Shown here: in pieces, positions 3,670 through 20,823 of the stretch
Position numbering within the stretch: position 1 is the first letter of the stretch
Layout: each line of letters starts with the position of its first letter
Source: a virus
Length of the DNA: 26,471 nt
Strand: one strand, 5' to 3'
IMG/VR virus record: IMGVR_UViG_3300046684_000015
Coordinates: 1 to 26,471 of that record
Position numbers and translations under genes: made by a program
Notes under the pieces: model-generated
The model's input: the letters and a program-made list of their open reading frames with translations, nothing else
Databases searched by the model: none
What the model was told of the DNA's origin: nothing

Positions 3670-4209
3670 TCACCAGACGATCGCCGCGATTTCTTCCGGC
3701 GTGCTCGCGGCTGCAAGCTGCGCCTTCAGATCCTGCGAGTGGTTGAAGTTGTCGGCGCCGCGCTTCGTCATGGCGCGGAACATCGCCCTGAAGTCATCGA
3801 CGGTCGGCAGCGGCACGTAAGTGTTATCCGTTGCCTTCCAGCCGCCCGGGAAGTTCTCAGGGAACGTTCCGAACAGCGCGATCTCGCCGGCGGTGGACAA
3901 GATGTCCTTCCACGACAGTGCATCGACGGCAATCTCCTTGCCGGCGTACGGGAAGGTTTTTGCGTTCGCCGCCTCTCGCCAAGCGTTGATCTCGTCGTTC
4001 TTTGCCACTTTGAGCGCGGCCAGGTCCGGGCTGGCCGGCGGCGCCAGCATGATGCCGTCGCGCGCTTCGTTTGCGCGGTAGTTGACCCACACCCCTGCCA
4101 GCGCTTCATCGATGACGATCATGCAGTCGAGGTGCTCCGCAGGTGGCACCTGCAGGAGGCATTCGGCGAGCTTGCCATCGGCATCATAGGTGACGTATCG
4201 GATAGTCAT
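3670..4209 (-). CDS. DUF4376 tail-fibre-associated protein
   Basis: This 179-residue protein has an N-terminal half typical of small fibre-associated proteins and a C-terminal half that matches what I know of the DUF4376 family. The motifs are NAWREAANAKTFPYAGKEI, DALSWKDI, an FPGGWKATDNTYVPLPTVDDF segment and a STPEEIAAIVW end. DUF4376 proteins are usually encoded next to phage tail fibres, and a fibre assembly or tip role is assumed but not proven. Its first codon touches the stop of the preceding fibre gene, and the next gene starts five bases past its stop, so expression is coupled. No signal peptide or catalytic motif is visible. Confidence 0.82.
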   Translation of the reverse strand: MTIRYVTYDADGKLAECLLQVPPAEHLDCMIVIDEALAGVWVNYRANEARDGIMLAPPASPDLAALKVAKNDEINAWREAANAKTFPYAGKEIAVDALSWKDILSTAGEIALFGTFPENFPGGWKATDNTYVPLPTVDDFRAMFRAMTKRGADNFNHSQDLKAQLAAASTPEEIAAIVW

Positions 4210-5216
4210 CAGGCCACTTTCTTGAATTTAAGTTCGGCGTACACCTCGACAACTCCAGCACTGCTGAAGGACGCGCTTCCGGCATTAGTCGCGTTGACAA
4301 ACCGACGGAGTGCGATGGTCTTCGCCGCGGATATCGTGAACCTTCCGCGCAAAACAGAACGATAGGTGCTGGTCGCGGTCGCGTTTGAGGCGTCTACCGT
4401 TCCCGCGTCAATGACGGTTGCGTCGGTGACGTTGTACAGCTGCGTTTTGTGCGCGGTGAGAGCCTGTGCGTAGACCGGAGAACTGCCCTCAAACTCGTAG
4501 GTTCCTGCCGGCAGAACAATCTGGTTGGCCGAAAGCGATGCGCCGCTAATCTCGTTCACCTTCACCGTGTTCAGGACACACGTTACCCACGCGGCGGTTG
4601 TCGACGAGGTTCCCGAGGCAGTTCCTGAAGCCAGTTCTTCGCGCACATACAAGACTTGGGAAACCGCAGCCGCCCCCGCGTCGCCCTTGTCGCCCCTGTC
4701 GCCGGTGCGTGTGAACTTGATCAGCACCGACTCACTTGCGCCGAACGGGTTTGGCGAGCTACCGCCGGTATTCGTCACCGTCAGCTTTCGGTATCCGGTC
4801 GCGGTCGTGCGCGCAATGATGTCGAATGTAAGGAATTGGGTCTGATCGCCTTGCTTGACGATCCGGATCTGCCCCTTAACAGTGCTGCTCGATGCGTCAA
4901 ACTGGTCGAGGATTGATGTGTTATCAACCCCGTCCGCCCCGAGCAAATCAAGATAGAGCGCAGTCGCTGCGTTCTGCGTCGAGGCGTTCAGGCGCAGCTT
5001 CCCGGGGGTCGGGTCGCCATCTGCGGTAGACGACAGGTCGACCGTGTAGGCCAGCGCGTACGCGCCGCCAGTTGCGAGGGAGTTGAGCCCGGCAACGAGG
5101 GCAAGAAGCTCAGTGACGAAGTTGACGATCCATGTAATGAAGGCGTCGAAGCGATCGCTGAACGTCGCTTTATCCTTCCGCTGCGGTGCCAGCGGCGGTG
5201 GGGTGAGAAGTGCCAT
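4209..5216 (-). CDS. Tail fibre / receptor-binding-like protein with short collagen-like linker
   Basis: This 335-residue protein has three visible parts. Residues about 1-50 hold a Pro-rich start and a hydrophobic helix (FITWIVNFVTELLALVAGL). Residues 55-170 are beta-rich. A short Gly-X-Y stretch, GDRGDKGDAG at 172-181, leads into a C-terminal beta-rich domain at about 190-335 resembling trimeric C1q/TNF-like fibre heads. Collagen-like linkers are common in phage fibres and favour trimers. The gene lies after the tape measure and a tail protein and before a DUF4376 gene, the place for host-recognition fibres. Its ATG shares one base with the previous stop. It is short for a fibre, so it may be a tip protein rather than a long fibre. 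Confidence 0.72.
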   Translation of the reverse strand: MALLTPPPLAPQRKDKATFSDRFDAFITWIVNFVTELLALVAGLNSLATGGAYALAYTVDLSSTADGDPTPGKLRLNASTQNAATALYLDLLGADGVDNTSILDQFDASSSTVKGQIRIVKQGDQTQFLTFDIIARTTATGYRKLTVTNTGGSSPNPFGASESVLIKFTRTGDRGDKGDAGAAAVSQVLYVREELASGTASGTSSTTAAWVTCVLNTVKVNEISGASLSANQIVLPAGTYEFEGSSPVYAQALTAHKTQLYNVTDATVIDAGTVDASNATATSTYRSVLRGRFTISAAKTIALRRFVNATNAGSASFSSAGVVEVYAELKFKKVA

Positions 5217-6148
5217 TAGATGAGCCCTTTTACTGTCATTGAGATGTTGCAGCGGTCAGCGCGGTAGACGAACTTTCCAGAGCCGAGACCCCAGCTTCGA
5301 AGTCCAGCCGCATCGGGACTGTCGGAGCAGAACCAGAACGCCGGCTTACCGAGCAGAGAGGTGACGACGGTCTGTGCGCGCAGGCCAGCAGCGCGGCTAT
5401 CGGTGATCGCCGACATCGACAAGTTCGTGGCCGAAGGGCCGTCGACAATGTCGGTGTTACCCCACTGGTCCGTGTCGATATAGGCGAACGAGGTTGGCTC
5501 CGCCTCGGCATCGGACAGGGTTTTGCCTAGCACCTTGACGTCTCCGACCGCCAATGCACCGCAGCTCACCGCGCCACCCCCAGTGAGCGAGACTGTGATC
5601 TCCCCGGTTCCGTATGGCGGCAGGTCCGTCAGCAGCAAATCCGTCAACGGCTCGAACGGGTCAAAGAAATATTCCCAGTAGTCGTCGGGAGCACTCGCCT
5701 CCATCGCCTGGGTGTAGGAGTAGACAAGGGCGCCGCCCGGCGAATCCTTCACGCTGACAGCGATATCGGTTGCCGACACACCAACCACATACAGCGAGCC
5801 GGCCGGACCTGGGCGCAGGACCACCGTCAGGTCGCCAGTCGCCGTGGTCGCCGTGCCGATCTTCTTGTCGAACATCGCCCAAGGGTTGGCCGGCCCCAGG
5901 TCCTGCCAGTACACGACGCCGCCGCTCGATGCTGCGACCCGATTGACCGGGTCAGTCGGGTCCTTCCCGACGTTGCTGGCAACCAGGCTTCGGTAGTTGT
6001 GCTGAGTCACGGGGCTGTAGCAGTAGGCGCCCGACGCGAAGGACGTTGTATCGTCCCAGGTCGGGTAGCCCTCCGTTACAGCCGTGGTGCTCTGTAGGAT
6101 TGCCGATGTGATTGTGACCGGCACCAGAACGCTGAGGTAGCCGCTCAT
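5216..6148 (-). CDS. Tail protein with carbohydrate-binding-like N-terminal region
   Basis: This 310-residue protein starts directly after the tape measure stop (TAA then ATG with no gap). Residues about 28-67 (YPTWDDTTSFASGAYCYSP, then HNYRSLVASNVGKDPTDP) follow the pattern of CBM5/12-like carbohydrate-binding modules: W, a Gly turn, a Tyr-Arg strand, then Asn-x-Gly. The rest is beta-rich with aromatic patches (DDYWEYFFDPF) and a C-terminal NISMTVKGLI strand. I recall similar proteins among siphophages in the gene following the tape measure, so a distal tail or tail tip role is likely. It might bind surface polysaccharide. No catalytic motif is visible. The family name cannot be given from sequence alone. 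Confidence 0.65.
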   Translation of the reverse strand: MSGYLSVLVPVTITSAILQSTTAVTEGYPTWDDTTSFASGAYCYSPVTQHNYRSLVASNVGKDPTDPVNRVAASSGGVVYWQDLGPANPWAMFDKKIGTATTATGDLTVVLRPGPAGSLYVVGVSATDIAVSVKDSPGGALVYSYTQAMEASAPDDYWEYFFDPFEPLTDLLLTDLPPYGTGEITVSLTGGGAVSCGALAVGDVKVLGKTLSDAEAEPTSFAYIDTDQWGNTDIVDGPSATNLSMSAITDSRAAGLRAQTVVTSLLGKPAFWFCSDSPDAAGLRSWGLGSGKFVYRADRCNISMTVKGLI

Positions 6149-9100
6149 TTAGAGGCCTTTCACGCGAATGAAGTTGCCGCCTGGGCTCGCACCCTTAAGC
6201 ACATCAGCCATGGTTGCCATGTCTTTTGCCATGCCCTCGATTACCTCCCGCTGTTTGGCGTTTTCTTCCCGCAGGTTCTTGATTTCCTCAGCCAGCACAC
6301 CGTTGTTACTCGGCGGGTTCCGCAGCGCGTTGATGATCGCCTGCGTGCTGTGGATCCTCGATGCACCAGTCGCCTCGATCTCGACCCCCACCTCGCCAAC
6401 TGCGCGAATGCCGCCGGCGAAGTCGCCGCCATTGGCAAAGCCCGGAATCTTGTGAAGCTTCTTGTACTCATCCGAATCCATGAAGAAGGAGCGGATCTTG
6501 TCGAGCGAAGTGCCTCCGGCCAGAATGCCCTGCCAGTACTGCATGCCCGCTTGATCCGGCGCCCGCTCGAGCAGCGCCTGATACAAGTCGGCGACGCCCG
6601 AAGTGCCACCAACGACAGGATTCGTCTTCGCCACACTGATCGACGACTGGAACGCGGCCATGGCTTGCGCCAGGGAGAGCGTTGCAACCGACTGCCCATT
6701 CAGTGCATCGATCTGCGCCTGCCCATTCGCCACGATGTCATCCAGGCGCTTGAGCTGATCCTTCCCGACCTCGAGAGCCTTCTGCTCGACCGACAGGGAA
6801 TCGTCGGTGATGCCCGCAAGCTGCGAGACGTCGTTCTGCGTGGTCAGCAGATCGAACAGATAGTCCTCGCGCGAGCCGAACAGCTTCGACGCATCCTGAT
6901 TTACTGCGCCGAGCGCCTTCTTCAGCGACTCGACCTGAGCATCGGAAAGCGACCCGCCAGCCTTGGTGATAGCCAGGCCGGCCTGAATCTCAGCCCGCGC
7001 GCTGGCTCGAGCAAACAGTTTCTGCTCTGGCGATTGGATGCTATCGAGCGTGCTGTGAAGCGCTTGGGACAGGGACTGCAGCTTCGCCACCGATGCCGTA
7101 TGGGCATCGATACTTGACTGAATCCCGGCCTTTTCGCGCGTCACAACCCTCTGCAGAACCGAGTAGGAGTCGTTCACACCACCAAGCAGCTTGCTTGCAG
7201 CATCCTTGACGGCCTCTAGGGCCTGCACCTGGGCGTCCGCGGCATCCTTCTGCGCATCGACGATCGTCTTGAGCGCTGGGGCGATCGTCATCAGCTCGGT
7301 GTACGCTTCGGCGCTTGCCTCCTTCGTCATATCCAGGCCGACGATGAAGTCGCGGAACACCTTCGAAGCGTCCGGACCATCGGCCGACAGCCCGTACTTC
7401 GACAGCGTCGGCGCGATCCGCTTCTTCAGTGCATCCGCCTGCTCCTGCGGGGTGAAGAAGTTAGTCAGGAAATACTCGGCCTGGCTGGTGAACTTATCCA
7501 AACCGCCGGCGAGCTGCACCAGGTGGTCGCGAGCCCCGATCGAAGCCAGCCCCACGGCGCCGAACGTCTTTCCGAACGACTGGAACACCACGTCGATGGT
7601 CTGATATTCGGACGCGACTCGCACCAGGGTTTCGAGGTAGCCTTCGCCGACCTGCTGTAGCTGCGACAGGCCGCCGACAGCAAACTGCGCCATGTCGTCG
7701 CCCAGCTTCGAGAAGACCGATTCGAGCGCCTTCTGCAGGTCGTCGCCCTTCAGGTCTTTCAGGCTCACATGGCCGATATCGACCACGAAACTATTCAGCC
7801 TACTGGTGAAGTCGTCGCCGGCGAGCCCAAGCAAGTCACCGGCACTCTTGACGCTGTCCGCCATCGACTTGATGATCGTGGTGAACTGTTGATTCGCCGT
7901 ATCACCAAGAGCGGTGATCTGCTCACTGTGCTTGTCGCTGCCAAACCAGCCGCCCGACGTCTTAATGTCGGCATATTGAAACGCCTTGACCCCATCGCCA
8001 ATGATCGTCGCCAGGCTGGCCGGGTTGATGCCAAAACCAGAATCCTCGACGCTCTGCTTGCCGCCGAAGATCGACGTAGCGATCTTGCCCAGAATCGGGA
8101 TGTTCTTCGCCATCACGCCGACGAGCGCACCGATCGCTGCGCCGATCGGGCCAAAGTACGAGCCGATGGCCGCGAACGTAGCCACTTGAACGCCCTTGGT
8201 TGCGGCGCCGTTGTTGCTGTTCAGCGGCCCTACACCCGGATTCGTGATGTCCGTGGTGCGGACCAATTGACTTGCAAAGGTGCCGATGTTGGTGTCGATG
8301 CTGCGCAGGGTGGCGAGCATGCTGTAGTTGATCGCCAAGCCCTGGTACGTGTTTTTCTCGACCGCGTCGAGCGCTCTCTTGATCGACTCCGATTTCGCGT
8401 CGCTGTCGCCCAGTACTGACCCAGTGCCCTGCGTCTTCTGCCGATCTTCCGCCAGGCTGACGCTGCTGCGACCGCCGGAGACAGCGAAGCCCAGCCCGAC
8501 CATCACTGCGGCCATTGCTGCCATACGCGGCCACGCGCTATAGGGATCACCCTGAGCTTGATTCGCAACACCGACAACTGCTGCCGCCTGTCCCTTGATC
8601 TGGGCAGCGGCGACTTCGGGACCGACGCTGGCGAGTGTCGCACTTGTCTCGGCCTGCTTGCCGGCGATTACCGCAGTGGTGTATGCGCCGAGCAAGCCCG
8701 ACTTCTTCACCATGTTCGTCACCGCCATCACCATCTCGGTGGCGCGGTAGGCCTTCTCTACGCCCTCAAGCACCTTATAGCCCTTCGAGTTCTGGTCGAA
8801 GAAGCCTTTCGCCGCGCCCGCCATATCGCCATAGCTTTTTATCTGAGCCTGGGCCGACGCCTGAGCAGCCATCTGGTTAGCGCGCTGGATCTTAGTCGGA
8901 TCGCCGTGGGCGTCCTTGGTCGCGTTCGCCAACTGCGCGGCGATTGCTGCCTGGGTGCGCTCGTAGCCGGTAAGCGCGGTAGTCATTCCTCCAATTGCCT
9001 GGCCCACGGTTCCGAAGGATTGAGTCATGCCCTGAGCTGCAGACTGCGCAGCCTGGTCGAGCGCGGACAGAATGTCCACCATCGCATTGAGGTCTTGCAG

Positions 9101-11257
9101 GGGCTTGTCGAAGATTTCCTGCTTGGCGGCGCCGCGGACCTTGGCGTCTGCGAGGTCGCGCATCTGCTGCGCTTGCTCGCGATACAACTTCGCCAATTCA
9201 TTGCCCGGCTTTATAGCATCGAGCTCAGCAGCAGTTTCCTCCTTGAGTGCGGCAGCACTGTAAAGACGAGCCGACTGAAGTTCAGCAACCTGCCTCGTGC
9301 TAAGGCCAATTGCCTGGTTGGCCTCAAATTGCGCCTTGGTCTGCTCGAGCAGACTGTTGCGCTCCGCAGTCGCCCCTACGATGCCAGCGTTGTAGAGAGC
9401 TTCGGAACTTTGGCGGCGGCGCTCCTGCAGTTCAAGAAGGTCGTTTTGCTGCTTTTCCTCGCGGTTCGTGCGCTGCTCCCGCAGCGCTTTAATTTCGCCC
9501 TCCTTATCAGCTTGATCTTTGCCGGAGTTGAACTTCTTCTTGATCTGATCTAACTCTGCCTGCCTCGACTGGATCTCGCGGTCAATCTTCGCAAGTTCCT
9601 CCTCCGCCGTGTCGTTGATGGCCTGCTCTTCGCTAATATCGCCGACGTTTCGCTGTGTGGCAATTCGCGCAACTCTCCGCTGCGCCAGCAAATCTTCGAC
9701 CTGGTCACGCCTCTTGAGAGCGGCAATGTTCGAGTCGATACCTGCGTTATAGAGGTCGGAGTAGCTTTTCCGAATTGCGGCTACCCGCTTCTCGACCGTC
9801 TCAGAGTCGAGGTGCGCTTCCGTTCCAAGCCTGATTGCCGCAGCGATGTCACGGCGCTGCTGGGCCTCACGGTCCAGGTATTTGTCCGCCTGCTTGTCCC
9901 ACTCCTTTTGCGCATCGTCGATCTTCTGTGCCGCAGCGTCTGCCTTGGCCTGGTCGTTCTTTGCCTTCGCCTTTTCCCGGAGTCCGTCGATCGAACGCTG
10001 ATTAGCATCCAGCTCCGCCTGATACGACGCAACATCCGCTGCGAGGCCGCGCTTCTTGGCGCGCTCCAGGTTTTCCTCGATGCTTGAGCGTGCGGCCAGC
10101 AGAGTGTTGATCTTCTCGAAGTCCGAAGCCTCTCGCCCACCAGCGAAGTCAACGACCGCGTTCGCCGCATCCGACGCGTACATCTTTAGGCCCAGCCAAG
10201 CCTTTTCCCAACTGTTCAGTGTCGCGAGAACTTTATCCTTTTGCTCCGCGACGCCGGCCGCATATGCCTGTTGCGCCACGTCGGCGGCACGGGTCATGTC
10301 GCCAACGTCTTGCAGGGCCTTCACCTGGCGGAGGGTGCTCGCATTGATGAAGTGATACTTCTCATCAATCGCATTCAGCGCCTGAAGCGGCGACTTGCCA
10401 AGTTTTTCGAACTCGCCGACCGTGTCCTTTACGCTGCGACCCAAGATCTGCTGCGCACCGATGGCCACTACCGCGAACTTCTGGATGCTGTCGGCCGGCA
10501 CCTGCGCAGTCTCTACGAGCTGCGCCACCGCGTCAGCCGCATCGCGCGACCCGGAGATGGCAGCAACGTTGTGCGACATCTCAGCAAGGCGAGACGACGT
10601 CACTCCTGCGGCGTTGCCGCTCAGGATAATGGCACGCTGGAACGCGGCTGCCTCATCAGCACCAGACTTATATGCCAAAGCCAGGGCGGCGACTGCCGCC
10701 ACGCTCACGGTCAGTGGGTTCACCATCCCCAGTAAATTAGACCCCAGAGCGCGGGCCGCGGCGCCTGCTCCGCCGAATTGATCGCGAAGCTGTCCGCCCT
10801 GCTGCAGAGCCACCGTCAGAGGAGCCTGCCCGCCCTGCAGGGCAGTAACAATATCCGTTATCTGGGCCGGCACAGTCCGCATTGCTGCCGCGATTTGAGC
10901 GGCTGATGCGCCAGCAGATGCCGCTGTGCGGGTCTGGGCCTGCTCGACCGCCCGCAATTGCGCAATGTACGGCGCCAGGGTGTTCGGGTCGATACCACGC
11001 TGGCGCGCCATAGTCTCGTAGTAGGCGGCGGTGTTCCTGCCGCCGGACTCCATGGCAACCGTCGTGCGCTGGATCGAGGCGATGATGTTGCGCTGCGCCG
11101 CCTCCACATTTCGAGCCGCTGCGGCGGCCCCATTGCCAACCTGTGCGACCGCCTCGCCGGTTCGGCGAGCAGCGTCTACTGCTGGGCGCAGTCCAGCTTC
11201 GACACCAGAGGCGTCCGCGACGACCCGGATTGTTGCGGTGTTGGTGATTTCAGACAT
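6149..11257 (-). CDS. Tape measure protein
   Basis: This 1702-residue protein is the longest in the window. The N-terminus is of the lambda-type tape measure class (RVVADASGVEAGL, then long Ala/Gln-rich helices). Several hydrophobic patches follow: about residues 180-200, about 910-925 and a long Gly/Ala-rich one at about 1025-1065. Coiled-coil charge patterns dominate residues 380-680 and 1350-1540. Tape measure proteins set tail length and thread the tail tube; at roughly 0.15 nm per residue this predicts a tail near 250 nm. Residues about 1555-1600 resemble a DUF4214 segment (LYQALLERAPDQAGMQYWQG), which is unusual here. An IPGFANGGDFAGG hinge typical of tape measure C-termini follows. It lies downstream of the tail chaperones, as expected, with one gene intervening. 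Confidence 0.95.
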   Translation of the reverse strand: MSEITNTATIRVVADASGVEAGLRPAVDAARRTGEAVAQVGNGAAAAARNVEAAQRNIIASIQRTTVAMESGGRNTAAYYETMARQRGIDPNTLAPYIAQLRAVEQAQTRTAASAGASAAQIAAAMRTVPAQITDIVTALQGGQAPLTVALQQGGQLRDQFGGAGAAARALGSNLLGMVNPLTVSVAAVAALALAYKSGADEAAAFQRAIILSGNAAGVTSSRLAEMSHNVAAISGSRDAADAVAQLVETAQVPADSIQKFAVVAIGAQQILGRSVKDTVGEFEKLGKSPLQALNAIDEKYHFINASTLRQVKALQDVGDMTRAADVAQQAYAAGVAEQKDKVLATLNSWEKAWLGLKMYASDAANAVVDFAGGREASDFEKINTLLAARSSIEENLERAKKRGLAADVASYQAELDANQRSIDGLREKAKAKNDQAKADAAAQKIDDAQKEWDKQADKYLDREAQQRRDIAAAIRLGTEAHLDSETVEKRVAAIRKSYSDLYNAGIDSNIAALKRRDQVEDLLAQRRVARIATQRNVGDISEEQAINDTAEEELAKIDREIQSRQAELDQIKKKFNSGKDQADKEGEIKALREQRTNREEKQQNDLLELQERRRQSSEALYNAGIVGATAERNSLLEQTKAQFEANQAIGLSTRQVAELQSARLYSAAALKEETAAELDAIKPGNELAKLYREQAQQMRDLADAKVRGAAKQEIFDKPLQDLNAMVDILSALDQAAQSAAQGMTQSFGTVGQAIGGMTTALTGYERTQAAIAAQLANATKDAHGDPTKIQRANQMAAQASAQAQIKSYGDMAGAAKGFFDQNSKGYKVLEGVEKAYRATEMVMAVTNMVKKSGLLGAYTTAVIAGKQAETSATLASVGPEVAAAQIKGQAAAVVGVANQAQGDPYSAWPRMAAMAAVMVGLGFAVSGGRSSVSLAEDRQKTQGTGSVLGDSDAKSESIKRALDAVEKNTYQGLAINYSMLATLRSIDTNIGTFASQLVRTTDITNPGVGPLNSNNGAATKGVQVATFAAIGSYFGPIGAAIGALVGVMAKNIPILGKIATSIFGGKQSVEDSGFGINPASLATIIGDGVKAFQYADIKTSGGWFGSDKHSEQITALGDTANQQFTTIIKSMADSVKSAGDLLGLAGDDFTSRLNSFVVDIGHVSLKDLKGDDLQKALESVFSKLGDDMAQFAVGGLSQLQQVGEGYLETLVRVASEYQTIDVVFQSFGKTFGAVGLASIGARDHLVQLAGGLDKFTSQAEYFLTNFFTPQEQADALKKRIAPTLSKYGLSADGPDASKVFRDFIVGLDMTKEASAEAYTELMTIAPALKTIVDAQKDAADAQVQALEAVKDAASKLLGGVNDSYSVLQRVVTREKAGIQSSIDAHTASVAKLQSLSQALHSTLDSIQSPEQKLFARASARAEIQAGLAITKAGGSLSDAQVESLKKALGAVNQDASKLFGSREDYLFDLLTTQNDVSQLAGITDDSLSVEQKALEVGKDQLKRLDDIVANGQAQIDALNGQSVATLSLAQAMAAFQSSISVAKTNPVVGGTSGVADLYQALLERAPDQAGMQYWQGILAGGTSLDKIRSFFMDSDEYKKLHKIPGFANGGDFAGGIRAVGEVGVEIEATGASRIHSTQAIINALRNPPSNNGVLAEEIKNLREENAKQREVIEGMAKDMATMADVLKGASPGGNFIRVKGL

Positions 11258-14175: not shown

Positions 14176-14471
14176 TTCGCGCTCTCGACAACCAGGAAAG
14201 CAAACGATCGATCGGTATCAGGCAGCACCGACTTGACGTCGTATTCCTCGCCGGCGTAGCGCACGCGCCAGGCCGGGGTAACGTCTGTTCGAGTGCGGAT
14301 CCGGATCGAGGCGCGCTTGACTGCCACTTCCGCGTTAGCGCGCAGCACTTCGGCGCCGCTCTGGAATCGGACGTCAGCCCACACGGTAGCGACGTCTGCC
14401 CAGTCTTCAGTCGGCTGGCCGGCGGCATCTCTTCCCGTTATGCGCTGCAGGAGTGTGATTCGATGGTTCAT
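14172..14471 (-). CDS. Head closure protein (head-tail adaptor)
   Basis: This 99-residue protein matches the phage head-tail joining family (PF05521 type, SPP1 gp16-like). The start MNHRITLLQ is typical, followed by GQPTEDWADVATVWADVRF and, near the end, WRVRYAGEEYDVKSVLP. These small beta-barrel proteins stack below the connector and stop DNA leaking from the head. The ATG overlaps the upstream connector stop, and its own stop overlaps the next start. Length and motif order are as expected, so the call is firm. Confidence 0.9.
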   Translation of the reverse strand: MNHRITLLQRITGRDAAGQPTEDWADVATVWADVRFQSGAEVLRANAEVAVKRASIRIRTRTDVTPAWRVRYAGEEYDVKSVLPDTDRSFAFLVVESAK

Positions 14472-15049
14472 AGGTACACCACAAGTCCGTCTAGCAAGTG
14501 CTCAAAGTTGGTTTCCTTGGCGTTCGGCACTGGAGCGAAGTACTGCGCCACGCGCGCCAGGATGTAGCTCTTAGCCTCGTCCGGCACGGCTGCGTCGGTC
14601 GGACCATAGCCGCAGGTGTACTGGACCTCGACGGCACTGACGCGCGCTTCAGCCAAAGGCCAGGTTCGACCAGCTGCTGGAACAACACGCCCGGGCTCGC
14701 ACTTGGTGTCCACGATGTAATCCGCCGGGTCCAGCCGCTGCAGAGTACCGTCGACGTCGTAAAACCGAACCTCATCAACGGCGATCAGGCGCGACTTTGG
14801 CAGCTGGATGGCGCCGGGCCCGCCATTGCGCGCCATCGGGAAAGCATCAAACGTCTCTTCCCAGGTCTGGGTGACGAACGCGCGATTGGTCTTGTGCTCT
14901 GCATCCCTGGTGTAGGTGCGAACTTCGCGCGCAATGTCTACGTCGAGTGGTGAGGTGCCGTCGGCATCGACGTCAACTCGCGCGGACCGACGCGCCTCAG
15001 CCAGTGAGACTGCGAGCGCGGCCGGTGGTGTGATTTGCCGTTGCCCCAT
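14468..15049 (-). CDS. Head-tail connector protein (phiE125 gp8 / HK97 gp6-like)
   Basis: This 193-residue protein resembles the connector family that docks below the portal ring. It has an N-terminal ALAVSLAEARRSARVD helix, a central TYTRDAEHKTNRAFVTQTWE motif, the QLPKSRLIAVDEVRFYDVDG strand pair, and a late YTCGYGPTDAAVPDEAKSYI. The TQTWEETFDAFP and CGYG motifs are characteristic of phiE125 gp8-like proteins. It lies at the start of an overlapping four-gene connector block. It is separated from the portal and capsid by an insert of accessory genes, which is less usual because connectors commonly follow the capsid directly. Confidence 0.88.
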   Translation of the reverse strand: MGQRQITPPAALAVSLAEARRSARVDVDADGTSPLDVDIAREVRTYTRDAEHKTNRAFVTQTWEETFDAFPMARNGGPGAIQLPKSRLIAVDEVRFYDVDGTLQRLDPADYIVDTKCEPGRVVPAAGRTWPLAEARVSAVEVQYTCGYGPTDAAVPDEAKSYILARVAQYFAPVPNAKETNFEHLLDGLVVYL

Positions 15050-15246
15050 CAGCCACCTCCGCGCCTTGCGGCGTTAGGCTGGTAACCAGGGCCAGCCGGC
15101 GCTCGAACAAAGCTTGCCGTCGGCGGCTCCGACTCGGAACGCGCCACTCCGCTAGTCGGCTGCGAAGCATCCTGCGGTTGGTGAGCCTTCCTCAGCGTCA
15201 CCCCCGGCGGGGCGTTGTATTGGATCGGATAAGTTGGGCCGGACAT
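15049..15246 (-). CDS. Small Pro/Gly-rich protein of unknown function
   Basis: This 65-residue protein is not recognised. The ATG at 15246 is preceded by GGAGGATCACTG and overlaps the upstream stop as TGATG, which decides the start over longer readings. The sequence has MSGPTYPIQYNAPPGVTLRK at the N-terminus and is then Ser/Pro/Ala-rich and apparently disordered, ending in RRGGG. It shares one base with the connector start, so it is translated with the head-tail block. It could be a flexible structural peptide, but nothing in the sequence shows a function. Confidence 0.6.
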   Translation of the reverse strand: MSGPTYPIQYNAPPGVTLRKAHQPQDASQPTSGVARSESEPPTASFVRAPAGPGYQPNAARRGGG

Positions 15247-15578
15247 CAGTGATCCTCCCGGACGAACCACATCGTCCTGTCGATCTGCTCGCCGTTCGCG
15301 CAGAACAGGCGAATCGTGCAGAAGTTGGCGGCGCCGCTCGCGAGGTCCAGCCCGCCCAGGTACACGCAAACATCAGTTCCGACCACTTTCAGGTTCGGAA
15401 GGCCGTCGGGGTGCGTCGCAAGGGAAACGCCGGCACATATGGGCGCCAGCGCCCTCGTCGCATGCGGCGTCGTGCCCGAGTCAGCAAGGTCTTTAGCGAA
15501 GCCGAACTTGTACCAGCGGATATCGTCCGGATCCTTCGGCACAGTCCACTTGAGGCCTACTAATGTTGGGTCAGCCAT
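15246..15578 (-). CDS. Small virion-type protein of unknown function
   Basis: This 110-residue protein has an N-terminal LKWTVPKDPDDIRWYKFGFA segment and a beta-rich second half: VVGTDVCVYLGGLDLA, then FCTIRLFCANGEQIDRTMWF. The end, a strand with IDRTMWFV, resembles the last strands of small beta-sandwich phage proteins such as fibre or head adaptors. This resemblance is weak. It has four Cys. It sits between the esterase group and the connectors, so it might mount an accessory protein on the virion. No catalytic motif is seen. Confidence 0.6.
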   Translation of the reverse strand: MADPTLVGLKWTVPKDPDDIRWYKFGFAKDLADSGTTPHATRALAPICAGVSLATHPDGLPNLKVVGTDVCVYLGGLDLASGAANFCTIRLFCANGEQIDRTMWFVREDH

Positions 15579-15604
15579 TGGAAATTTATCCTGTTAGTTC
15601 GAGA

Positions 15605-15790
15605 TCAGAAGTCAACGCGATTCGTCCCGCCGCCGAAGTCAACTCGGTTGGTCCCGCCGCCAAAATTCACCGTGCGTGCGGACGAAATCTTCGATGGATC
15701 GATGCCGGTCGCCGGGTCAGTCGGCGGCACGTCAACCGTCCTGCTTACCTCCCCCAGCGCAAACTCGCCGAGTGCTCCAAATCCGAGCAT
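15605..15790 (-). CDS. Small repeat-containing protein
   Basis: This 61-residue protein starts at ATG 15790 with an excellent AAAGGAGAGGCC ribosome site, which rules out a longer reading through the esterase. The N-terminus MLGFGALGEFALGE is a pattern I have seen in small proteins encoded near phage head genes, with no known role. The C-terminus repeats FGGGTNRV in tandem, encoded by a 27-bp duplication. It begins 10 bases after the esterase stop. A structural or adaptor role in the virion is only a guess. Confidence 0.65.
   Translation of the reverse strand: MLGFGALGEFALGEVSRTVDVPPTDPATGIDPSKISSARTVNFGGGTNRVDFGGGTNRVDF
15608..15661 (-). repeat. Two tandem 27-bp repeats in coding sequence
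   Basis: Copies at 15608-15634 and 15635-15661 differ at three of 27 positions, and a partial third copy follows. They keep the frame and encode the repeated FGGGTNRVD ending of the small protein, so copy number could vary without disrupting the gene. Confidence 0.85.
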
Positions 15791-15800
15791 GGCCTCTCCT

Positions 15801-17363
15801 TTAACTGACCGCGATGGGTGCGCATGGCTGGAGCGGGGCGCCGCCCATGGTCTTGTTGACGTAGCTGAGGTTGTCGTACAGGCATCGAGCCGGATCGAAC
15901 GACAGGCCGTTACCGCTGGCCGCGCCGCAGGGCACATCCATATAGGCGTTCGAAACTGTCAGCGGCGCCACAAACGACGCGGTCAGGGACAACTTGAACT
16001 GCGCCGCCGCCGTAACCTGCAGCACGTACGGAATGACCGCGCCAGTCGAGTCCTTCACCTCCAGGCTCGTCACGCTCGCGCCAGTACCGCCGGCGCCATC
16101 AGCCAGGTCCGTGCCGCCGGCGTGAATAACGTTGGCGAAGATGTCCGACCCAATCAGCTTGACGTTGGCTGGGTCGATCTTCGGCCCAGCGCCGCTCGCG
16201 CCGATGCCGTAGACAGCCGCCAGCGCGGAACGGGCGGCGCGGCGATAGACGCGAGACAGCGGCGGGCCATCCTGGTGAACATGGTCCGCCGGGGTGTTGC
16301 CGTCATACGCGGAGCTGGCCAAGAACCAGCCAGCGGTCGTGTTTGCGTAGTCGGCCTGGTTCGCTCGCATCACACCGGACTTGGCGTAGCTTCCATCGCA
16401 GGCGCCGAGCGAAATCATGCCCATCTTGAAATTCGATTTGGTGCGACCAAACGGCGCGAGCAGATCGAGCATCTGGGCCTGAAGGCCATCCCACTTGGCG
16501 CGCATCTGTGCGACGGTCTTGGTAAGCGTGTCCGCTTCGGCCTGCGACCAATCCATTCCCTCGATATCGCCACCGACTGCGGCGACCGCAGCCGCCAGCT
16601 TCGGCCAGTTGATGCCCGTCGTCGGCACCCAGGTATCGATCGACTGGCCACCATACGCTGACAGCACGATCAGGACAGGCACGCCCAGCTCTTGTGCGAG
16701 CATGTTGGCGAAGTAGACCGGCGCATCGGCGTTGGTGACGTCGTTGGTCCATGGTGGGCCAGACGGGTATCCGCCTTGACCGAACAGAATGAACGGCGCA
16801 GACGGCATAGCGCCGCTGGTTGCTCGATTACCCAGGATGCCGCGCCTGTTGTTCGTCGCATCGTAGGCGCGTGCGTTCTTCGAGCCGGTCGGGTACTTGT
16901 CTGCGGTCGTGAACGTGTTCACCATGTTCGACTGCCCGGACCACAGGAAAATCGCACCGACCGCGAACTCGTTCGCACCGTTCGAAACGATGCTGTTATC
17001 GTTGCCATCACGGATCTGCAGCTTACCCCATTTCCCCTGGGACACTCGCAGCACGCCGCTACCGGCGCCGCCGGTCGGGTTCGTGGCGATCGTTGTCCAC
17101 GGCACGATTTCGGCACCGCTCGCGTCGACCATCCGCGCCTGCACGATGGCGGCTGGCCCGGTGTAGGTGAACGGGACCTGCACGTCCTTGTAGGTGGCGC
17201 CGGCTGCGCGTTGCATTATCGTGCCGTCGACAACATCCGCCAGCGAGAGCGACGTCGCTGCCGGGCCGGTCACAGGTGGTTGCGCCTGTGCCGCCCCTGC
17301 TGTCACCAAAGCCGGCTTCCCGCCACGCAGGCGCAGCTTGCCGCCAGATAGACGGATACTCAT
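15801..17363 (-). CDS. SGNH hydrolase, sialate O-acetylesterase-like
   Basis: This 520-residue enzyme is predicted to remove acyl (acetyl) groups from carbohydrate. LWSGQSNM gives the nucleophile S145, YGGQS near 237-241 supplies an oxyanion Gly, W272-x-Q-x-E-x-D is the SASA-type block, and DHVH gives D360 and H363 of the triad. An N-terminal region of about 130 residues (after a basic RLRGGKPAL start) and a beta-rich C-terminal domain (about 395-520) flank the core. There is no signal peptide, so virion attachment is more likely than secretion. The start directly abuts the stop of the Ig/Fn3 protein. Deacetylation of host capsule or O-antigen during adsorption is inferred. Confidence 0.85.
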   Translation of the reverse strand: MSIRLSGGKLRLRGGKPALVTAGAAQAQPPVTGPAATSLSLADVVDGTIMQRAAGATYKDVQVPFTYTGPAAIVQARMVDASGAEIVPWTTIATNPTGGAGSGVLRVSQGKWGKLQIRDGNDNSIVSNGANEFAVGAIFLWSGQSNMVNTFTTADKYPTGSKNARAYDATNNRRGILGNRATSGAMPSAPFILFGQGGYPSGPPWTNDVTNADAPVYFANMLAQELGVPVLIVLSAYGGQSIDTWVPTTGINWPKLAAAVAAVGGDIEGMDWSQAEADTLTKTVAQMRAKWDGLQAQMLDLLAPFGRTKSNFKMGMISLGACDGSYAKSGVMRANQADYANTTAGWFLASSAYDGNTPADHVHQDGPPLSRVYRRAARSALAAVYGIGASGAGPKIDPANVKLIGSDIFANVIHAGGTDLADGAGGTGASVTSLEVKDSTGAVIPYVLQVTAAAQFKLSLTASFVAPLTVSNAYMDVPCGAASGNGLSFDPARCLYDNLSYVNKTMGGAPLQPCAPIAVS

Positions 17364-19193
17364 TTAGGCTCCGGTGAACTGAAGGCCAGCTGGATTGGCA
17401 TTGACAGGCTGACCGGCGAACGTGTTGGTGGTCGTGTCAAATGCAACGAACCACTGGCACCACTTGCCGGTGTCGCCGGCTGGAACCCACAGAATCGCGC
17501 TGTCCACAAAGTTTCCGTTGCCGGAATTGAAGCCGCAGCTGACAAGGCCATTCTTTGACGTACCGCCGTTCTGGTTCGGGTTCGGCGAAGGCGGGGACGC
17601 GCTGGAGAATAGAACGTCTGATTCGGTCGGCGTAACCCCCTGCGGGAACCATCCGGACAGAACGCGAGAGGGAACAACGTTGTCCGAGGTGCGCTTGAAA
17701 TACCAATAACCGTTGCTGTTGATGCTGGTCTTTTCGTTTGTGAGGCCCTTGCCAGCAGGCGGATAGTTGAAGTTGTAATTGCTTGCGACACTGAGGTCGA
17801 TTGAAGGTGAGTTGGGCTTGACCGCGTTCGGCCCGTTCGTGCCAGGGTAGCCGGCGAGCGTGTACGCCGGCAGAACAACCGGCGTCGCCGTGGTCGCGGT
17901 AGCGGTGGCCGAAGCAGCACCTGGGCCGCCCGCGTTGGTGGCGATGACCTGGAATTCGTAACCTTGCGATGCAGTCAGGCCGGTTACGGTGTAGCTCGTG
18001 CCGGTTGCAGTGGTCGTTGCGGCGGTCCATGCCGCGTCGCCGGTCTTGCGATAGTTGACCGTGTAGGCCGACGCGCCGCTTGCTGCGGTCCAGGTCAGCG
18101 GAACGGTACTGCTAGTCGGCGTGCCAGCGGTCAGGCCGGTCACTTGACCCGGGGCAGCCATCGCAGCAACGGTGATCGTCGCCTCGGCGTATTTGGACGA
18201 GTCTTGTGCGCTGGTAGCGCGCACGGTAAAGGTCTGCACGCTGCCGGTAGCGGCAGGAACGGTCGCCAAGCCTGATGCGTTGACCGTCGCCGTATTCGGG
18301 GTGATCGTGTAATTGACAGCCTGTGACGGAGAATTTGCGCCGGCCACGGTGGTCGTAAATTGCTGCGTCCCGCCACCAGCTACGTTGGCGCTTGTCGGGC
18401 TGATGGTGACGCCGGTGACGGTCGGCGCAGGCGTACCCGCTGCCAGCGTCGTAAATGCCGTGCCGAGGCTTAGCACGGCGCTGTCCTGCGGGTAGGTGTC
18501 GCGGTGCAGGACATGCAGGTAGTACGCCGTCGAAGCCTGCAGGCCGCTACCTGGAAGCGACTGCGCGCCGGCCGCAGTGACCGCTTGGCTGTTGCCGGCC
18601 TTGACTTGTGCCGCGGTGGCGGTCGAACTGGTCGAGAACAGCCAATAGATCGTTCCGCCGACTTCGTTCGTGGTCACGCTGCCAGTTGCGCTGGACGAGG
18701 TGACGCCGCTGACGCTAAGTGCGCTCAGGGTCGGCGGGTTATCGACGGGCGTGCCGCTGCCCGTCTGCAGATTGCCTGGATAAATACGCTGCGCAGTGCC
18801 GTCCGCAAGCGTGATTTCGACCGAGGCGTTACTTGGAGCCGTGGCTACGAGCGGTAGATCGAGCACACTCACGCCGGTGAGATCTTCGGCAAACTCGTTG
18901 CACGCGACGGTCACCGTGCCGGAGAACGTCACTGGACCGCCGGCGGCCGAGCTGTCCGAGACACGCTCGCGCGTCAGCGTCGGGTTCTGTGCGGTGCCGC
19001 CAACCGTGAAATAGCTGGCCTCCCAGTTGTTGGCGTCCTCGGCGAAAAGCTTCAGTCCAGTCCGCCCAACTGCGAGCTTCCCGTCCGCAATTGCCACGGC
19101 GGGCGTACGGAATTTGGCGATGCCGGTGAAAGACGTAATGGTCGCTAAGCTCGCTGCTGTCGTTGTGAATTTCAGCCGGTTTACAAGCGTCAT
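17364..19193 (-). CDS. Virion-associated protein with Ig/Fn3-like domains
   Basis: This 609-residue protein has several modules. Residues 1-150 form a head-type N-terminal domain I do not recognise. Residues 153-252 look Fn3-like (TIYWLFSTSS, STAYYLHVLHRDTYP). Residues 257-343 match a BIG2-like Ig fold (VTISPTSANVAGGGTQQFT). Residues 346-435 match fibronectin type III (VPLTWTAASGASAYTVNYRK, then SYTVTGLTASQGYEFQVIA). A unique C-terminal domain (442-609) contains a WYFKRTSDNVVPSRVLSGW segment. Ig/Fn3 modules on phage structural proteins are thought to bind surface polysaccharide. No signal peptide is present. The esterase start abuts its stop, so a joint capsid or tail decoration is suggested but unproven. 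Confidence 0.75.
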   Translation of the reverse strand: MTLVNRLKFTTTAASLATITSFTGIAKFRTPAVAIADGKLAVGRTGLKLFAEDANNWEASYFTVGGTAQNPTLTRERVSDSSAAGGPVTFSGTVTVACNEFAEDLTGVSVLDLPLVATAPSNASVEITLADGTAQRIYPGNLQTGSGTPVDNPPTLSALSVSGVTSSSATGSVTTNEVGGTIYWLFSTSSTATAAQVKAGNSQAVTAAGAQSLPGSGLQASTAYYLHVLHRDTYPQDSAVLSLGTAFTTLAAGTPAPTVTGVTISPTSANVAGGGTQQFTTTVAGANSPSQAVNYTITPNTATVNASGLATVPAATGSVQTFTVRATSAQDSSKYAEATITVAAMAAPGQVTGLTAGTPTSSTVPLTWTAASGASAYTVNYRKTGDAAWTAATTTATGTSYTVTGLTASQGYEFQVIATNAGGPGAASATATATTATPVVLPAYTLAGYPGTNGPNAVKPNSPSIDLSVASNYNFNYPPAGKGLTNEKTSINSNGYWYFKRTSDNVVPSRVLSGWFPQGVTPTESDVLFSSASPPSPNPNQNGGTSKNGLVSCGFNSGNGNFVDSAILWVPAGDTGKWCQWFVAFDTTTNTFAGQPVNANPAGLQFTGA

Positions 19194-19206: not shown

Positions 19207-19386
19207 TCATGGGTCAGCGAGCCGCCCAGCGATAAACGCCAGCAGCTCGGCGTCGCTTTTCGCGACTATGTCTTCAGGGGGAATCGCCACCGAGGCAGTT
19301 TTGCTGCGCACGATGACGAAAAGAGCGCCCGGAGCCACGGCCTCGGCGCGCACGTTGGCGAGCCAGGCGGTGGTCTCGGGGCTCAT
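19207..19386 (-). CDS. Small protein of unknown function near capsid gene
   Basis: This 59-residue protein starts at ATG 19386, four bases after the stop of the preceding small gene. Translation is probably by coupling, since no strong ribosome site is visible. A longer in-frame reading upstream would overlap that gene and is not credible. The sequence contains LFVIVRSKTASVAIPPEDIVA and ends in a helix with AELLAFIAGRLADP. No signal peptide or catalytic motif is seen and the family is not recognised. The gene lies between the major capsid gene and the Ig/Fn3 protein. Confidence 0.6.
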   Translation of the reverse strand: MSPETTAWLANVRAEAVAPGALFVIVRSKTASVAIPPEDIVAKSDAELLAFIAGRLADP

Positions 19387-19390
19387 GGGG

Positions 19391-19567
19391 TTACTCGTCG
19401 GCCTTCGGCTTCGGGAGCGATTCCGCGTAGGCGACTGCTGCCGGGTCAGCATCCAGGGCGGCGGCGTTAGCCTTGACCTCGGCGTGGTCGACCTCGACGA
19501 CATCGTTCGGTTTGCCGAACGCGCCCTCGACCAGGACGCGCGCTTTCACTTTTTTGGCTTCTGCCAT
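19391..19567 (-). CDS. Small protein downstream of the capsid gene
   Basis: This 58-residue protein starts at ATG 19567 behind a GGAGAAGAAC ribosome site. It begins with the basic AEAKKVKARVLVEGAFGKPN, continues with VVEVDHAEVKANAAALDADP and ends in PKADE. The beta-like start with a Val-rich strand and an acidic second half resemble small accessory head proteins found next to capsid genes, but I cannot name a family. It follows the capsid gene after a 50-base gap holding a strong hairpin, and it is directly followed by the 59-residue gene. Confidence 0.65.
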   Translation of the reverse strand: MAEAKKVKARVLVEGAFGKPNDVVEVDHAEVKANAAALDADPAAVAYAESLPKPKADE

Positions 19568-19617: not shown

Positions 19618-20823
19618 TTACGAGGCGCTGTTCTGGTACAGCTTCACAGCCGCGGTGTCGAGCAGGTTGCCGCCCGAACGGGTCCAGCCGCAGAAGCCGA
19701 CCTGACCGTTCAGCGCGAAGGCCGAGTCGTCGAAGCGGCGCATGGTCGTGCTGTTCTTGACGTCGCGGATGGTGTACTGCGAGAAGTCGCCGAACGCGAT
19801 CGACTTGGCATTTGCAGCCATGACCGGCACGTCGTCGTTGACGGTCACAGCCTTGCCCAGCAGAAGATCAGGGGCGCCTTCGGTCACAGACGGGATCCAG
19901 ATCGGACGACCGACGGTGTCTTTCAGCTTCGACACGGCCGCGACGCTCAGGTCATTCATCATCCACTTGGCGCTGGCACGGTAAGCACGGTTCACTGCGT
20001 GCTTCAGGTCCACCAAGTCGTCGTAGGTAACGGTCAGGGTCTGGCCCGATGCGCCAACCTTGCCGACGGACGAAGCGGTGATCATGCCGGTAGGCTGGCC
20101 GACGCCAGAGCCGGTGGTCTGATGCAGGTTCTGGATGCGGGCGATGCGGGTCACCAGGCGGTTCACGACGAACACGATCACGTCGATGGCGCTGTCCATG
20201 ATCAGCTCCAGCGGCAGCGCGATCTTCTTCGACGAATACTTGTAGACCGGCAGGGCCACGGTGCCGAAGCCGATATCTTGACCAGATGCGCCGCCGTTTT
20301 CAGCCACGATCTCGCCAACTTCGCCGGTGCCGTCGCTGGTTGGGAAGTTCAGCGCGTGGCCCGTATCGGTGGTAAGCACAGTGGCGACGCTGCGCATGCC
20401 GCCGAAGGCTTTCAGCTTGTCGATCACCATTGCGGCCACCTCCGCCGGGACGGTGAAGCCACCCTCGCCTGGCGTGGTGGTAGACATCGCGTTCTTGATC
20501 GCGGCGGCCTGCTCGGGGGTGACGTTGGTACCGTTGCGCAGGTACAGCGCGACAGCGACGAGGTTGGTGATCTCGACATCGCCGCCGGCCGGGTTGAGGT
20601 TCGGCTTAGCCGCCGGGCCGTTGAAGAGCTTGTCGGCGTCCAGCTCGCGCATGGTCTCGATGTTCTTGATCGAAGCCTTTGCGTCGTTGATCTCGTTGGT
20701 GAAACCGTCGAACTTGGCCTGCTCCTCCGAAGTCCAAGGGCGATCGCCTTTCTCGGCGATCAGTGCATTGGCGAGTTTAGCGCGGTCTGCAATCTTCTCG
20801 CGCAGTGCTTGGATGGCGTCCAT
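19618..20823 (-). CDS. Major capsid protein, HK97 fold
   Basis: This 401-residue protein builds the icosahedral head. Residues 1 to about 112 form the helical, charged delta region that acts as an internal scaffold (REKIADRAKLANALIAEKG, then coiled-coil heptads). It is normally removed by the prohead protease. The mature part likely begins near the STTTPGEGGFTVP stretch at 114. GEVGEIVAENGG and the KYSSKKIALPLELIMDS strand are typical of HK97 gp5 relatives. The gene lies after the portal and protease genes, with a terminator-like hairpin and an AAGGAAATAC box ahead of it. The exact cleavage site is not shown. Confidence 0.96.
   Translation of the reverse strand: MDAIQALREKIADRAKLANALIAEKGDRPWTSEEQAKFDGFTNEINDAKASIKNIETMRELDADKLFNGPAAKPNLNPAGGDVEITNLVAVALYLRNGTNVTPEQAAAIKNAMSTTTPGEGGFTVPAEVAAMVIDKLKAFGGMRSVATVLTTDTGHALNFPTSDGTGEVGEIVAENGGASGQDIGFGTVALPVYKYSSKKIALPLELIMDSAIDVIVFVVNRLVTRIARIQNLHQTTGSGVGQPTGMITASSVGKVGASGQTLTVTYDDLVDLKHAVNRAYRASAKWMMNDLSVAAVSKLKDTVGRPIWIPSVTEGAPDLLLGKAVTVNDDVPVMAANAKSIAFGDFSQYTIRDVKNSTTMRRFDDSAFALNGQVGFCGWTRSGGNLLDTAAVKLYQNSAS

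Follow-up and report, generated by a model that had tools for sequence, protein, structure and literature searches.

A variable slot between the capsid and connector genes of soil siphophages carries a predicted fibre and esterase module that may dock at the neck

The window (the whole stretch of DNA that was analyzed) is a virus record of 26,471 bases whose late genes are encoded on the minus strand. Beginning with the terminase, these genes encode the portal, a ClpP-type protease, the capsid protein, the cassette described here, the connector and a head-tail adaptor, followed by a gp10-like protein, the tail completion, tube, chaperone, tape measure and tail-tip proteins and finally the lysis genes. 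Some of these names were taken by analogy from annotated reference phages. The tape measure protein (6149-11257, 1702 aa) is followed by three tail proteins (5216-6148, 4209-5216 and 3670-4209) before the lysis genes are reached. No J-like central fibre was recognized by eye in the window, and the tail tip looks minimal. A 398-aa metallophosphoesterase-like protein (637-1833; DFHMG and GHLHH motifs by eye) is encoded after the lysis genes.

The capsid stop codon and the connector start codon are separated by 4,568 bp (approximately 4.57 kb), which agrees with the roughly 4.5 kb given in an earlier note on this sequence. The 609-residue Ig/Fn3 protein and the 520-residue SGNH esterase named there were both recovered in this interval (Table 1), and the esterase ATG (17363) does come directly after the Ig/Fn3 stop codon (17364-17366). 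The count of three small proteins was incomplete, as the ORFs of 61, 110 and 65 aa are accompanied by two more small genes, of 58 and 59 aa, that had been overlooked. Differences at the three codon positions numbered 89, 63 and 262 for the esterase gene compared with the related locus L003, and 136, 114 and 304 for the Ig/Fn3 gene compared with L006. Because of this third-position excess, the cassette genes are regarded as real and under coding constraint. A 337-aa ORF on the plus strand inside the esterase gene was discarded as an artefact, since its equivalent in L003 is broken by stops. A Kyte-Doolittle heuristic found no hydrophobic N-terminal stretch of the signal-peptide type on either large protein, again as noted earlier; the 15-residue maxima were 1.2 and 0.75 for the two proteins, whereas an ORF of the window whose N-terminus looks signal-like reached 2.3. 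Searches with both large proteins (tblastn) against 50,697 phage records gave no match at 1e-5.

Table 1. Features of the capsid-connector interval of the window, and coordinates of connector fusions in related loci.
Feature	Position	Strand	Basis or remark
HK97-type major capsid protein, upstream slot border	19618..20823	-	PF05065, E 1.2e-62; annotated reference phage matches
58-aa constant small protein adjoining capsid	19391..19567	-	Translation; family conservation across slots
59-aa small protein (MSPETTAWLANV...)	19207..19386	-	98-aa ORF according to a naive caller; counterparts in L004, L010, L021, L025 etc.
609-aa Ig/Fn3 fibre-like protein	17364..19193	-	Pfam; anchor alignment; structural matches
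Type A N-terminal anchor of the Ig/Fn3 protein	18882..19193	-	Anchor alignment A1; common to podophage tail fibres
520-aa SASA-family O-acetylesterase (predicted)	15801..17363	-	PF03629; invariant residues; model and fold matches
Candidate catalytic codons of the esterase	S145 16929-16931; D360 16284-16286; H363 16275-16277	-	
61-aa protein, N-terminus LGFGALGEFALGE, VNFGGGTNR repeats	15605..15790	-	Ribosome-binding site AAAGGAGAGG
110-aa protein, probable Gp77-type fibre adaptor	15246..15578	-	Homologous L028 copy passes PF23148; alignment A4
65-aa protein, C-terminal end FVRAPAGPGYQP	15049..15246	-	Start overlaps preceding stop (TGATG)
gp6-like head-tail connector, downstream slot border	14468..15049	-	phrog_442; TIGR02215; start overlaps stop of 65-aa gene
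Connector fusions in related loci	L010 15556-16491; L021 14780-15796; L025 14595-15611; L097 14997-15971		

The capsid-connector interval is a variable cargo slot. A capsid-based collection of 80 viral and 14 genomic loci was used for comparison, and the gap from the capsid gene to the next head-tail gene ranged from 227 bases to 5.8 kb (78 loci). Where hosts are named, most belong to the Burkholderiales or elsewhere in the Betaproteobacteria (Massilia, Janthinobacterium, Rhizobacter, Rhodoferax and Nitrosospira), and the carriers of the cassette are soil phages related to Burkholderiales prophages. Six reference phages with capsids 39-47% identical (VarioGold, PHB09, KS9, Mae-JY02, Marilyn and H4907) place no more than one or two small genes ahead of the connector, so that the insert-free order described as usual for HK97-like phages is right for them. 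The earlier note had counted a common and well-characterized gene order against its own reading; insertions between these two genes are indeed frequent among related metagenomic phages and prophages of Burkholderiales, and no characterized example was found.

The large slot fillers were classed by Pfam scan. SASA esterases occupy the slot in the window and in L004, L006, L009, L010, L021, L035 and L043, GDSL esterases in L012, L017, L029, L030, L031, L040, L042, L077 and L097 (several of them under the Pfam cut-off), and concanavalin-like lectins in L022, L023 and L056. Single slots held a GH43 protein (L045, 12714-14030), a polygalacturonase-like beta-helix protein behind a type A anchor (L096, 12044-14647) and an M14 zinc carboxypeptidase domain (L066, 13204-14814, the same slot as that of the Nitrosospira prophage L103), the last being unusual as a peptidase among phage surface cargo. 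HNH-endonuclease-like genes in L052 (5707-6318), L053 (5479-6213) and L064 (11358-12128) could drive slot exchange, and what looks by eye like an AbiE-type pair of regulator and nucleotidyltransferase (L081, 11298-12475; L082, 8756-9601) suggests that defence genes may be among the cargo. Many fillers begin with one of three recurrent N-termini. Type A is that of the Ig/Fn3 protein, type B reads MTIRLLCAY..., and type C is the RLxNGKLRLRNGK sequence with which the esterases begin. A constant N-terminus joined to a variable business end is also the design of exchangeable receptor-binding proteins. A derivation of the type B anchor as a copy of the 58-aa constant protein was considered and dropped, as the profile-profile comparison gave a probability of only 11.9%.

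The 609-aa protein consists of the anchor (residues ~1-104), a Big_2 Ig domain (259-319), an Fn3 domain (345-439; Pfam fn3 at 350-432) and a C-terminal domain. Only the anchor and the Ig/Fn3 region of its structure model are reliable; residues 256-439 have structural matches in a model-based fold comparison, and residues 440-609 yield no fold. Searching the PDB with the anchor sequence returned nothing. The anchor of L035 retrieved the N-termini of CRP-6, CRP-603, HTVC023P and two other fibres, with E-values of 2e-6 to 2e-9 for these five podo- or myophage fibres or fibre-adjacent genes. The window anchor aligns with the L035 anchor in alignment A1, and its direct match to CRP-603 is weak (E 0.56). 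By these alignments, the window anchor can be assigned to type A and is homologous to the N-termini of annotated tail fibres. Podophage type A fibres are preceded by phrog_644, and in several slots the gene ahead of a type A gene is homologous to it; the window has no phrog_644 partner. The gene order in CRP-603 is coat, phrog_644, type A-anchored fibre, gp57 (a low-complexity protein) and a Gp77-family protein. The adjacency of Ig/Fn3 and esterase genes is kept in the window, L003, L004, L006, L009, L010, L035 and L115 (an Oxalobacteraceae genome), and L021 has the type A anchor fused directly to the SASA domain. This conserved pair order and the anchor-SASA fusion support the view that fibre and enzyme belong together as a linked module.

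The PF03629 (SASA) match of the esterase covers residues 137-286 and scores 33.0 bits compared with a cut-off of 24.8. The protein is composed of an N-terminal motif (1-36), a beta domain (37-136), the SGNH domain (136-388) and a C-terminal beta domain (390-520). The catalytic residues pointed out in the earlier note, S145 (in GQSNM), D360 and H363, were invariant in 8 aligned sequences, while residue 361 was variable. The model has a mean pLDDT of 72 with low confidence at the active-site loops (146-212 and 354-366), and the putative catalytic triad is therefore backed by residue conservation only. A single-sequence search with the esterase against the PDB gave nothing, and profile A2 of the esterase family found CE20 chains with E-values of 6e-7 to 2e-5. 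In fold comparison, the model matched the CE20 enzyme XAC1771 (7kmm; Z 26.1, 390 residues, rmsd 5.1, spanning residues 39-518) and SIAE (Z ~22), such that the three-domain architecture of CE20 is present in the model. Further matches were obtained with the tailspike of the cyanopodophage Pan3 (Z 19.4), NanS (Z 16.9) and the N4 tail protein or complex (Z 16.3). The block V motif of CE20 has been described as DxH with a water-mediated triad (PMC12313940). As the spacing found here is D360-x-x-H363, filing the esterase as CE20 was rejected. The natural reading of sequence and model is a predicted O-acetylesterase with a carbohydrate substrate.

The small proteins tie the cassette to its surroundings in different ways. 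The family of the 58-aa protein (52-66 aa) follows the capsid in nearly all slots, including empty ones, and is also present in VarioGold and PHB09. In L002, L003 and L028 the 61-aa protein is fused to the domain of the 110-aa protein. The L028 copy of the latter, 43% identical to the window protein, matches PF23148 with 39.4 bits compared with a cut-off of 27; the window protein itself has no PF23148 match, and a search of the family against the PDB gave chance-level matches only. PF23148 ("GP4 fiber-tail adaptor") is named after podophage GP4, whose fibre paper is cited in PMC11784390. In 15 loci the gene just ahead of the connector, whatever its kind, ends in a RAP motif (YVRAPLG), with carriers of 53 to 907 aa; the end of the window 65-aa protein (FVRAPAGPGYQP) shares this motif. 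Start/stop overlaps join the 110-aa, 65-aa and connector genes in the window. The last cassette gene and the connector form a single reading frame in L010, L021, L025 and L097, with a fused N-terminal part that shows a hydrophobic-Gly start, Ala-rich repeats and the YVRAPLG motif; these four fusions may go back to a single ancestral event. The window carries the separate 65-aa gene instead. A wider search through 399 genomes from the same order as the Massilia genome G020 yielded connector matches but no additional clean cassette-connector fusion. Fusions, RAP motif and start/stop overlaps together argue for docking at the neck.

The earlier note had suggested that the module is virion-bound, holding and deacetylating host surface polysaccharide, and possibly located on the head. 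Its first part is upheld in qualified form by a linked pair with a fibre-type anchor, Ig/Fn3 domains and a predicted carbohydrate O-acetylesterase fold, and a polysaccharide esterase module of some kind is very probably borne on the virion. The placement fared less well. A head fibre or head decoration, for which Hoc-like Ig proteins and the head spikes of RcGTA are precedents, would explain why the cassette neighbours the capsid gene; an Ig-type decoration protein is present on the head of Moo19 (PMC11654681), and the N-terminal start of the 61-aa protein resembles the Leu-Gly repeat attachment peptide of RcGTA (PMC7296036). Yet the cassette is uncoupled from capsid type. The Ig, small-protein and connector set of L004 is 97-99% identical to that of the window (esterase 72%) beside a capsid that is only 26% identical, and L006 and L009 likewise carry the cassette next to capsids of only ~26% identity. 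L003 has an unrelated head, while L014 and L015 have capsids 81% identical to that of the window and no cassette. The podophage relatives of the anchor are, moreover, annotated as tail fibres. Since the cassette moves between heads, and since anchor, phrog_644 partner gene, adaptor homology and connector fusion favour neck or tail, a location on the head is not favoured for the cassette proteins and we consider it improbable.

The L003 cassette lies after the connector and terminator genes and directly before the tail tube gene, a position equally compatible with tail and neck. A spike at the tail tip or tail side, with the module attached to tube or baseplate and nothing but its genes close to the capsid, would suit this order, and the nearest phage fold matches of the esterase are tailspikes. 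The tail-tip gene phrog_6278 and the C-terminus of the tape measure are the other components common to L003 and the window. Co-occurrence of the cassette with phrog_6278 was dropped as a decisive argument, because phrog_6278 is present in phages with empty slots and was not found in the 44-kb record of L010, which has the cassette and may be incomplete. Fusion and translational coupling involve the connector and not a tail-tip gene, and a tail spike is thus judged rather unlikely.

O-acetyl changes are a known superinfection exclusion route. The esterase could accordingly be imagined outside the virion, as a late enzyme freed at lysis or as the product of a lysogenic conversion gene that changes host polysaccharide acetylation, and some related slots do contain genes that by eye seem non-structural (HNH-like proteins in L052-L054, nucleotidyltransferase-like ones in L081-L083). 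The lack of a signal peptide on both large proteins (by the heuristic above), the presence of fibre-type anchors and adaptor genes, and the position of the cassette inside the morphogenesis operon, to which it is coupled, make such a role very improbable.

The best explanation, held with a probability of about 0.5, is a swappable esterase/fibre module that would be incorporated into the virion and docked at the neck. It is favoured on the neck or tail side by the type A anchor, which begins podophage tail fibres that also have the phrog_644 partner; it is weakened by the window 110-aa protein falling below PF23148, by the separate connector gene of the window and by the position of the cassette in L003. 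According to this explanation, the Ig/Fn3 protein would be a fibre held by its N-terminal domain, and the esterase, a three-domain carbohydrate O-acetylesterase, would be carried by the fibre or next to it. Serving as adaptors, the 61-, 110- and 65-aa proteins would fasten the assembly to the head-tail connector ring at the neck. When the phage meets a host, the fibre may grip an O-acetylated capsule, exopolysaccharide or O-antigen, and removal of acetyl groups by the esterase would make binding reversible and let the particle move on to the final receptor. This receptor would be read by the separate tail-tip proteins (5216-6148 and 4209-5216), completing adsorption. Esterase activity, substrate and role in adsorption are all inferred.

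A wider generalization is more tentative and has somewhat less than even odds. It holds that, in a group of Burkholderiales siphophages, exchangeable proteins active on polysaccharides dock on the connector ring, that the last cargo gene always brings the RAP-motif tail or connector fusion, and that the slot can be filled by lectins, glycosidases, peptidases or esterases from two unrelated Pfam families. Each part is of a known kind; the apparent novelty lies in their combination, in which an exchangeable enzyme slot recurs at this place in siphophages together with a conserved docking tail and fusion to the connector. If true, these siphophages would present their host-range enzymes at the neck, encoded in a plug-in slot that has conserved flanks and a short docking motif, which would explain enzyme exchange among phages with different heads. 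The slot would then be a place to seek capsule- or exopolysaccharide-active enzymes in many unannotated prophages, and the role of siphophage neck appendages would become directly testable.

Several known systems share parts of this arrangement. XAC1771, PpCE20_II and mammalian SIAE resemble the esterase in an SGNH domain with GQSNM, N- and C-terminal beta domains and a near-full-length fold match, but the window enzyme is 15-18% identical to these enzymes, has DxxH in block V, is phage-encoded and shows no ancillary domain in the model. RcGTA head spikes bind capsule and are attached via a short Leu-Gly repeat peptide (PMC7296036). They share with the Ig-type head proteins of T4 and Moo19, and with the proposed module, an extra adhesion to surface sugars; these proteins sit on the capsid lattice, whereas no homology to them was found for the cassette, which follows no single capsid type. 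The lactococcal siphophages of the 936 group have, according to PMC6669499, a neck passage structure with carbohydrate-binding modules. They offer a parallel for the sugar binding at a siphophage neck that is proposed for the window. By that description, they differ in having binding modules and no swappable enzyme cassette, and in their Gram-positive hosts. The CRP-603 fibre cassette has coat, type A-anchored fibre, low-complexity protein and Gp77-like protein in an order shared with the window, in which the 110-aa protein would be the Gp77-type member; CRP-603, in contrast, is a podophage with P22-type tail genes and no esterase, and the phrog_644 gene that precedes its fibre has no counterpart in the window. 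Podophage esterase tailspikes (Pan3, Moo19/B2, G7C gp63.1 and N4) likewise present a carbohydrate esterase on an adhesion protein, with activity demonstrated for the Moo19 and B2 spikes (PMC11654681) and a three-domain arrangement like that of the window enzyme in Pan3. While those spikes belong to short tails and have their own N-terminal tail-binding domains, the window represents a siphophage in which enzyme and fibre are encoded by two genes, within a cassette placed between capsid and connector.
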